NCBI GenBank assembly: GCA_900315125.1
Contig: OMXT01000037.1
Span: 1 to 36,809, forward strand
Origin: an uncultured Eubacteriales bacterium
GTDB lineage: Bacteria; Bacillota; Clostridia; Peptostreptococcales; Anaerovoracaceae
Reading direction: 5' to 3'
Length of the DNA stretch: 36,809 nt
Under the pieces are notes generated by a model. That model worked only from the letters and a program-made list of their open reading frames with translations, ran no database searches and was not told the origin of the DNA. Below are positions 13,703 to 17,420 of this stretch, in pieces; position 1 is the first letter of the stretch, and each line of letters opens with the position of its first letter. Both the position numbers and the translations under genes were made by a program.

Positions 13703-13731
13703 TTGACAATATATGGTAATAATGATAAAGT
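13703..13731 (+). promoter_or_regulatory. Promoter of the PC4-like gene
   Basis: TTGACA (13703-13708), 17 bases, TAAAGT (13726-13731), about 90 bases before the ATG. Confidence 0.65.
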
Positions 13732-13820
13732 CTCCTACAAAAGGGGACGGGCAGCAGGGGCTGCCCGACAGAGGCGACCGGCGGATTCGCCGGCGCTGTT
13801 GACTGGAAGGAGGAGACATT

Positions 13821-14459
13821 ATGGCCAGCAGCAATGACAGGGATTTTACGTTTGAGATCGTAGATCACATAGGGACTATTTCCAGGGGGAAGAACGGGTG
13901 GAACAAGGAACTGAACCTGATCCGGTGGAACAACCAGAACTCGCCCAAGTTTGACATCAGGGCATGGCCGGAGGATCATGAGCACATGGGCAGGGGCGTC
14001 ACCCTCTATGCAGACGAGATCCGGGAACTGTTTGCCGTGTATATGAAGTGGAAGAATCGCAGAACCGTAGAGGAAGCGAAACGGGAGGAACAGCGGAGAA
14101 ATGACAGCTACCGCAGGCAGCGGGAGGAAATACAGAACCGCAGCGGAGCAGTGGTTGATTTCTCGGAGGACGAGGCGAAATCAACGGGAATGGCAGAGAG
14201 CAGAGAGAAGATGGAAGATGCCCAGGCGGCGCCTGCCGCAGCAGCTGCAAGTGTAGCTGAGGCTGTCGCAGAAAATTCTGCCTTAGAAAGTGCTGGAGCA
14301 GAAGATGCTGCCTTAGAAAATGCTGACGCGGGCAGCGGGAGTGCTTCGGAAAATAAGCCGGAAAGCACAGAAGAGGATAGTACGGGAGCGATTCCCTATG
14401 CATCCCTTGCGGACAGCGGCGCTGCAGACTCGCTGGTGGCAGAGGAAGTGCCGTTTTGA
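13821..14459 (+). CDS. PC4/YdbC-type ssDNA-binding protein with SSB-like C-terminal tip
   Basis: 212 residues. The first 75 or so match the bacterial PC4 (YdbC) fold that binds single-stranded DNA: FEIVDHIGTISRG, WNKELNLIRWN, KFDIRAWPEDHEHMGRGV. A charged helix (about 75-100) follows, then a long Ala/Glu/Ser-rich, probably disordered tail. The last residues are VAEEVPF. This resembles the acidic DDDIPF-type tip with which SSB recruits replication and repair proteins. Typical YdbC proteins are only the PC4 domain, so the tail is an unusual addition. GGAAGGAGG lies before the ATG and the gene stands alone behind its own promoter. I infer a genome-maintenance role; the tip function is untested. 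Confidence 0.85.
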   Translation: MASSNDRDFTFEIVDHIGTISRGKNGWNKELNLIRWNNQNSPKFDIRAWPEDHEHMGRGVTLYADEIRELFAVYMKWKNRRTVEEAKREEQRRNDSYRRQREEIQNRSGAVVDFSEDEAKSTGMAESREKMEDAQAAPAAAAASVAEAVAENSALESAGAEDAALENADAGSGSASENKPESTEEDSTGAIPYASLADSGAADSLVAEEVPF

Positions 14460-15755: not shown

Positions 15756-17420
15756 ATGAAAATTCAGCTGAAAGCGGAATACAGGGGAGAATTCAGGGAA
15801 ACAGAAGTAAAAGAGGGTACGTCCATCAAGACAATTGCGGACCAGTATCAGCAGGAACTGTCCTATCGGATCCTGTTGGCGAAAGTAGAGAACGAATACC
15901 AGGACCTGAATTACACCCTGGAGCGGGAATGCCGGGTCGAACTGCTGGACATGAGGACCTGGGCGGCTAGCCTGACCTATCAGTACAGTCTATGTCTGAT
16001 ATTTCTTGCGGCGTTCCGCAATGTGGTTGGCCACAGGAAGGTGACGATAGACAATTCCCTGAATCAAGGGCTCTATATCGGTGTGGACCGGGTCGAAGAG
16101 CTGGATGATGAGAAAACAGCTGCGGTGGAAAGGGAAATGCGCCGCATCGTTGAAGAGGATCTCCCCATTGAGTACACGGAAGTGACAAGAGAAGAAGGCC
16201 TCAGGATCATGGCAGAGGATGAGAGAGAATGCAGCATCCGGAGGATCCGACATCTGTCGCCGGCCAGAAAACTGAAATATTACCGGTTGGACGGATACCT
16301 GGACTATTTCTACGGCCTCATGGTTCCCTCTGCGGGATATATTGAGTACTTCGAACTGAAACGCTATAAAGACGGACTCCTGCTAAGGTTTCCTTTGTCC
16401 TCGGCACCTAAAGAAATCCCGGCGTATAAGGACCAGAAGAAACTGTACGGCGCATTCAAAGAGCAGAGCCGGTGGGATGAACTGCTGAGGGTAGACTTCG
16501 TGCCGGAGCTGAATGAGAAAATTGAGAGCGGCGCATACAAAGACCTGATCATGACCTCTGAAGCGCTTCATGAGAAGAAGATTGCGGAGATCGCCGATCA
16601 GATCGTCAGCAGCGGCAAGAGGATCGTCCTGATCGCGGGGCCTTCTTCCTCTGGCAAGACAACGTTTGCCCAGCGCCTGCGGATCCAGATGCGGGTCTGC
16701 GGACAGGAATCGATCTACATGGGAACCGATGATTATTTCGTAGAGAGGGAAGACACGCCCCGGGACGAAAACGGCGAGCCGAATTATGAGGATCTGGACG
16801 CCATAGACATCGATCTCTTCAACCGGAATATGAATGATCTGCTGAATGGAAAGGAAGTGGATCTGCCCACATTTGACTTTATTACCGGCCACAAAGTATT
16901 CGGAAAGAGAATGACCCGGCTTCATCCTCATGAATCTGTCGTTATAGAAGGGATCCACGGTCTGAATGAGAAGCTGACGTCCCTGATCCCGAAAGACGAG
17001 AAATTTAAGATCTACATCAGCCCCCTGACTCAGCTCAACATGGATGAACATTCCCGGATCCCCACGACAGATGAGAGGATGCTCCGGCGGATGGTGAGGG
17101 ATTACCAGTTCCGGGGACACAGCGCCCAGATGACCATTGACGAATGGCCCAAGGTACGGGCGGGGGAGGATGTGAACATATTCCCCTACAGCGATGAGGC
17201 GGATGTGCTGTTCAATTCCTATCATATATATGAGATCTCCGTGCTGAAGAAATACGCGGAGCCCCTCCTGAGCTGGATCGGCCCGGACGAACCGGAGTAT
17301 GCGGAAGCCCAGCGGATGCTTGCCTTTCTGCGGCCCTTCAGCACGATCGTGGATGACTCCGTGATCGTAAACAACTCTATTATCAGAGAGTTCATCGGCG
17401 GCAGCGTGTTCGTGCAATAA
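15756..17420 (+). CDS. TGS-domain nucleoside (uridine kinase-like) kinase
   Basis: 554-residue multidomain protein known in Clostridia and relatives. An N-terminal ubiquitin-like TGS-type segment (about 1-65) is followed by a region like the second additional domain of threonyl-tRNA synthetase (HRKVTIDNSLNQGLYIGVD onward). The C-terminal half is a uridine-kinase/phosphoribulokinase-type P-loop domain with Walker A GPSSSGKTT at 295-303, then YMGTDDYFVER and VVIEGIHGLNEKL. It is expected to phosphorylate a nucleoside in salvage; the true substrate is uncertain. GGGAGG precedes the ATG. There is an 83-base gap to the preceding lipoprotein gene. Confidence 0.85.
   Translation: MKIQLKAEYRGEFRETEVKEGTSIKTIADQYQQELSYRILLAKVENEYQDLNYTLERECRVELLDMRTWAASLTYQYSLCLIFLAAFRNVVGHRKVTIDNSLNQGLYIGVDRVEELDDEKTAAVEREMRRIVEEDLPIEYTEVTREEGLRIMAEDERECSIRRIRHLSPARKLKYYRLDGYLDYFYGLMVPSAGYIEYFELKRYKDGLLLRFPLSSAPKEIPAYKDQKKLYGAFKEQSRWDELLRVDFVPELNEKIESGAYKDLIMTSEALHEKKIAEIADQIVSSGKRIVLIAGPSSSGKTTFAQRLRIQMRVCGQESIYMGTDDYFVEREDTPRDENGEPNYEDLDAIDIDLFNRNMNDLLNGKEVDLPTFDFITGHKVFGKRMTRLHPHESVVIEGIHGLNEKLTSLIPKDEKFKIYISPLTQLNMDEHSRIPTTDERMLRRMVRDYQFRGHSAQMTIDEWPKVRAGEDVNIFPYSDEADVLFNSYHIYEISVLKKYAEPLLSWIGPDEPEYAEAQRMLAFLRPFSTIVDDSVIVNNSIIREFIGGSVFVQ

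Follow-up and report, generated by a model that had tools for sequence, protein, structure and literature searches.

The window, that is, the whole stretch of 36,809 nucleotides that was analysed, contains on its + strand a gene for a PC4/YdbC-type protein with a long C-terminal tail (tailed PC4 below) and, further downstream, a kinase gene. The features of this locus are the following:

13703..13731, + strand: sigma-70-type promoter-like site TTGACA-17-TAAAGT (10/12 consensus matches)
13807..13815, + strand: Shine-Dalgarno sequence AAGGAGGAG upstream of the tailed PC4 gene, rated a good ribosome-binding site
13821..14459, + strand: tailed PC4/YdbC-type protein gene (212 aa plus stop)
13839..14036, + strand: PC4/YdbC domain, aa 7-72 (3pm7 match over aa 7-72; PF02229 over aa 25-70; 14 invariant columns)
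14043..14150, + strand: mixed-charge stretch after the PC4 domain, aa 75-110 (from sequence and net charge)
14151..14441, + strand: acidic Ala/Glu/Ser low-complexity linker, aa 111-207 (from sequence and net charge)
14442..14456, + strand: SSB-Ct-like tip EEVPF, aa 208-212 (recurrence in relatives; the SSB of the genome ends DEDVPF)
15756..17420, + strand: uridine-kinase/PRK-type kinase with a TGS-like N-terminus (PF00485, 59.2 bits), which marks the orthologous locus

The initial annotation had read in this protein a PC4/YdbC domain, a long low-complexity linker and a final EEVPF, and all three were confirmed by the Pfam search, by matches to solved chains and by the sequence itself. PF02229 (PC4) passed narrowly over aa 25-70, with 25.7 bits for a cut-off of 25. 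Solved chains of the YdbC/SP_0782 type match aa 7-72, four of them with E-values of 3e-17 to 1.9e-14, and 14 columns of the YdbC-type core are invariant across 34 sequences, the tailed PC4 protein among them. No NCBIfam model matched the protein at E<=0.01, and the OB fold of SSB (PF00436) was not among its Pfam matches at E<=1. The first 40 aa past the domain carry a net charge of +1 and the last 95 aa a net charge of -17; the mixed-charge stretch at aa 75-110 is probably a helix extension. The C-terminal residues are VAEEVPF, i.e., an acidic residue followed by x-P-F. Proteins of the YdbC/SP_0782 family (PDB 2ltd, 2ltt, 2l3a, 5zkl, 3pm7 and 4g06) share the domain found at aa 7-72, but their solved chains have 79-82 aa and no tail, whereas the tailed PC4 protein continues for about another 135 aa and has an SSB-like tip at its end. 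Among these entries, 2ltd and 2ltt are YdbC structures, 2ltt with ssDNA, and judged by its solved relatives the tailed PC4 protein probably binds ssDNA as a dimer.

Upstream of the gene, the TTGACA element was seen by eye in 9 of the 14 other orthologues of the genus examined (10/15 with the source gene included). The 5' leader (13727-13823) folds much better than its shuffles (z -5.8) into two hairpins and an outer stem, the latter covering part of the Shine-Dalgarno site. A structured leader was dropped as part of the explanation, no shared fold being apparent by eye in the upstream sequences of 15 genus orthologues; the Rfam search returned 2 matches only, both far below their gathering scores.

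The tip is rare in the source genome (G000, 2.3 Mb). The pattern [D/E]-V-P-F followed by a stop (or TGG) occurs there at 2 sites, which are the SSB gene and the tailed PC4 gene. Relaxing it to [D/E]-x-P-F gave 17 matches, 8 with TGG and 9 with a true stop; two of these nine are again SSB and tailed PC4, and each of the remaining seven lies either in a frame of between 6 and 68 codons or in one of 164 codons that runs antisense to a frame of 537. Judged by frame size and position, SSB and tailed PC4 are the only clear genes found in G000 with such an end. The SSB, ending DEDVPF, is encoded by a separate gene on contig C13, and the genome also has a RecO gene.

Within the genus (g1), PC4 matches were obtained in 16 of the 17 genomes searched, and the best match of each genome extends 17 to 173 aa past the domain. 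Ten of these 16 orthologues have a terminal F and seven end in [V/L]PF: V-P-F in G000, G013, G001, G003, G015 and G006, and L-P-F in G004, which is Eubacterium pyruvativorans i6. Two others end in AAF (G002 and G007) and one in SAF (G008), and the ends of G016, G012, G009, G010, G014 and G011 have no F. Their linkers can barely be aligned, and 12 of these proteins span 94 to 254 aa. A terminal F was found in none of 12 additional short PC4 loci of the genus. As for SSB itself, each of the 17 full-length copies from 16 genomes of the genus terminates in P-F preceded by acidic residues (V-P-F in 16, I-P-F in one), and the tip is missing from an SSB fragment (L060). In E. pyruvativorans i6, the PC4 tail ends GELPF and the SSB ends EDDVPF. 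Thus the parallel drawn in the initial annotation, the plan of SSB built on an unrelated fold, is real: it recurs in orthologues with barely alignable linkers, and the SSBs of the genus also end in V-P-F.

The survey was extended to the bacterial family, where a profile search matched 276 of 349 genomes, part of these matches being read: 30 loci from the search, 40 further loci and 58 lower-scoring PC4 loci (2 of 60 regions were other genes). A PC4 protein was called tailed with at least 25 aa beyond the domain and tail-less with fewer than 10 aa, those with 10-24 aa falling in neither class. A first set, which also holds loci from other searches (genus genomes and viral contigs among them), kept 220 of 261 candidate frames after removal of 2 open-ended frames, 7 without a GITL-like motif and 32 duplicates. 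The second, lower-scoring set kept 55 of 58 (3 dropped), 7 of which were already in the first set. At least two of the resulting 100 distinct tailed proteins (L117 and L143) do not belong to the family.

In the first set, 39 of the 70 distinct tailed proteins end in F, a set biased toward PF-like ends because the search profile (A1) itself contained tails. In the second set, 6/30 tails end in F, one of them in PF, which alone still exceeds background (binomial 2.6e-4, although p-values of this kind come out too small when sequences are related). Taken together, the 100 tailed proteins comprise 45 with a terminal F, 18 of which are PF ends, and 55 without one. Shuffling within tails over 2000 rounds produced on average 2.1 F ends (maximum 9) and 0.15 P-F ends (maximum 3), and background proteins end in F in 13 of 424 cases and in PF in one of 424. 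Terminal F was found in 3/139 PC4 proteins with fewer than 10 aa past the domain, in 1/15 of those with 10-24 aa in the first set (L008, VPF), and in none of the 18 with fewer than 25 aa in the second set. The preference is confined to the very end: F is the last residue in 39/70 first-set tails and occurs in at most 5/70 at any position from -2 to -20, and it makes up 1.6% of tail residues (92/5783). An acidic residue lies within the six before F in 44 of the 45 F-ended tails, and the tails are acidic, with a median net charge of -8 over their last 30 aa. An acidic Phe or Pro-Phe end therefore recurs among the relatives far beyond chance. The initial annotation had named similar tails lacking a conserved P-F end as counter-evidence, and the family partly shows this: what recurs is a terminal Phe, carried by roughly one in two tailed proteins, with the P-F dipeptide in only 18/100.

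The distribution of these ends over the family is uneven. F-ended tails are present in nine genus codes, with F ends in 11/12 members of g41 (12 of its 13 genomes were read), 4/4 of g220 and 10/16 of g1, and, among tree rows, in 12/36 of code g251 and 2/15 of code g223; P-F ends account for 6/14 tails in g1 and 8/12 in g41. On a poorly resolved tree of 99 rows, from which L117 and L143 were omitted and to which L008 was added, 19 changes of the terminal-F label are required. Five of 73 non-F-ended tails contain an internal [V/I/L]PF that follows acidic residues (DGDVPF, EDEVPF, EDQIPF, AEELPF and EEELPF), as does none of 46 F-ended ones, small numbers for which the shuffle control had a mean of 0.8 and a maximum of 5 in 1000, i.e., reached the observed five. 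These motifs look as if a former tip had later been extended, a weak indication since shuffles reached the observed count.

SSBs were also read from 28 other genomes of the family, and all 29 end in P-F; further SSB matches, mostly weaker, lie outside this count. Their ends are V-P-F in g41, g220 and g11 and I-P-F in g251, g260 and g224. In the sister genus g41, the SSBs thus end in V-P-F whereas T-P-F accounts for six of the eight PC4 tails with a P-F end (six of the 12 members), so that PC4 tips are not exact SSB copies, and exact copying of the SSB tip as a general rule was rejected. Other PC4 tips are A-x-F or E-S-F, looser than those of SSB, and ends such as AAF, ESF and EERF are poor copies of the SSB-Ct. 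Three SSB-like proteins of about 213-219 aa (L296, L396 and L397, from g41 and g251) gave weaker PF00436 matches and have no P-F end, and in two genomes (G613 and G614) the SSB profile matched one and the same frame twice.

The genomic context bears on the origin of the gene. The kinase, whose TGS match scores 19.8 bits, below the cut-off of 22.2, is a neighbour at 52 of 70 loci with tailed PC4 versus 9 of 150 loci with short PC4, and where it is missing it may lie beyond the sequence covered, because flank lengths differ. Given this shared neighbour, tailed PC4 is for the most part a single inherited gene to which a tail was added. A mobile or phage origin was judged unlikely for the same reason, and none of the 38 PC4 loci on viral contigs is among the first-set tails of at least 25 aa. 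One viral locus (L208) has a long extension after PC4 that ends in A. The neighbours are not DNA-metabolism genes, except for exonuclease III three genes upstream of tailed PC4; exonuclease III and a metallophosphoesterase recur at several loci and give little functional hint.

Outside the family, 20 long-frame PC4 loci from a sample of the class included one short tail ending DNQPF (L425), and the tails of L418, L421, L427 and L429 have no terminal F. The PC4 tail of Weissella uvarum (L143) ends LNDF. In a sample of the phylum, a PF02229 search found PC4 in 56 of 398 genomes; of 15 long-frame loci, six matched the PC4 profile, none with a tail, and nine gave no match. This part of the survey is weak because the PF02229 genome search missed the source gene itself, finding only a short PC4 on contig C71. 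L430, from another family of the class, has two PC4 stretches in one 355-codon frame with a long extra C-terminal region, and the C-terminal extension of PC4 in L117 (Anaerovibrio) looks folded rather than low-complexity.

Several known systems resemble parts of this arrangement. Bacterial SSB (SsbA, PF00436) is likewise laid out as an ssDNA-binding domain followed by a low-complexity linker and an acidic-x-P-F end; the tailed PC4 protein shares the V-P-F of the SSBs of the genus and differs in having no SSB OB-fold domain. Both the acidic residues and the last Phe are important in SSB tips. Phage T7 gp2.5, unlike tailed PC4, has an OB fold and phage replisome partners. The likeness of gp2.5 lies in an acidic tail with a functionally essential last Phe, its C-terminal Phe being called essential in a title cited in PMC9917605. 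According to PMC3128108, the DDD(I/L)PF tail of SSBs is a site of partner interactions, and the EEEELPF tail of pneumococcal SsbB matters for ssDNA processing. SsbB binds ssDNA in an accessory role, as proposed for tailed PC4, and has an acidic tip of the SSB type, but, by the same source, it is an SSB paralogue made during competence. Deinococcus DdrB is also an alternative ssDNA-binding protein on a non-SSB fold, but a pentamer of another fold. AcrIIA22 and PC4-like proteins of phage T5 likewise use a PC4-like fold to act on DNA in bacteria and phages, but AcrIIA22 is a nickase and the accessible part of PMC8545432 describes no SSB-like tail for these proteins. More generally, the literature presents the SSB C-terminal tip as an address tag for many genome-maintenance enzymes that is studied as an inhibitor target. 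Among the open-access matches listed, no title or abstract opening describes a bacterial PC4 protein with an SSB-like tip, in agreement with the initial annotation, which knew of none.

We give about an even chance to the reading that tailed PC4 binds ssDNA alongside SSB, using a fold other than OB, and that its tip would imitate the SSB-Ct so as to share SSB partners or compete for them. A chromosomal PC4/YdbC-type protein would bind ssDNA, probably as a dimer, and would have gained, within this bacterial family, a presumably flexible acidic tail with an SSB-Ct-mimic tip. Once bound to ssDNA, it could present this tip to the SSB-Ct pockets of partners such as RecO or PriA, and thereby either bring SSB partners to PC4-covered ssDNA or compete with SSB for them. 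The T-P-F tips in g41, the 55/100 ends with no F, the mere 18/100 in P-F, the 6/30 F ends of the lower-scoring set, the 2/15 F ends in g223, poor copies such as AAF, and a neighbourhood that, exonuclease III apart, has no DNA-metabolism genes count against such mimicry. The main rival is that the tail acts in cis, its acidic Phe-ended tip folding onto the DNA-binding surface of PC4 and lowering or tuning ssDNA affinity with no SSB partner involved. Acidic tails sitting on a DNA-binding domain, PC4 tips more variable than those of SSB, as would suit a loose intramolecular contact, and the essential C-terminal Phe of T7 gp2.5 named in PMC9917605 all fit a role in cis. It does not predict, however, the P-F dipeptide, the V that the tip shares with the SSBs of the genus, or that SSB is the only other clear gene of G000 found with a [D/E]xPF end, and we regard it as unlikely; such a role would not be exclusive, as SSB tails may do both.

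It is also improbable, in our view, that the Phe-ended tail docks onto a different, lineage-specific partner (e.g., RNA polymerase, a chaperone or a protease) instead of the pockets of SSB partners. That terminal Phe alone is widespread with P-F in the minority (18 PF ends against 45 F ends among 100 tails), and that several clades end in AAF, ESF, EEAF or ADF, would suit such a partner, but P-F is frequent in g1 and g41, and the few internal acidic-then-[V/I/L]PF motifs fit an ancestral SSB-like tip. Finally, the tail could be a fast-evolving disordered segment with no specific function and no partner, its Phe end inherited by descent, as might be suggested by tail lengths at the locus ranging from 2 to 173 aa, by the roughly half of tailed members with no Phe end, and by the 19 label changes on the poorly resolved tree. 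We consider this very unlikely, because drift should have erased the F while the linkers hardly align, and yet F stands last in 39/70 first-set tails and in at most 5/70 at each of the next 19 positions. The initial reading of an SSB-like PC4 protein is thus partly supported as a whole, with docking onto SSB partners being what we infer from the form and recurrence of the tip.

In its wider form, which we hold slightly less probable than an even chance, the proposal is that in this bacterial family two ssDNA-coating proteins of unrelated fold would work on one partner network, PC4 having convergently evolved an SSB-Ct tag that calls RecO, PriA or others, or keeps them from SSB. If this is true, SSB would not be the only protein to which its partners respond, and a role for bacterial PC4 proteins in DNA repair or replication would become testable, a question for which Eubacterium pyruvativorans i6 offers a named strain.
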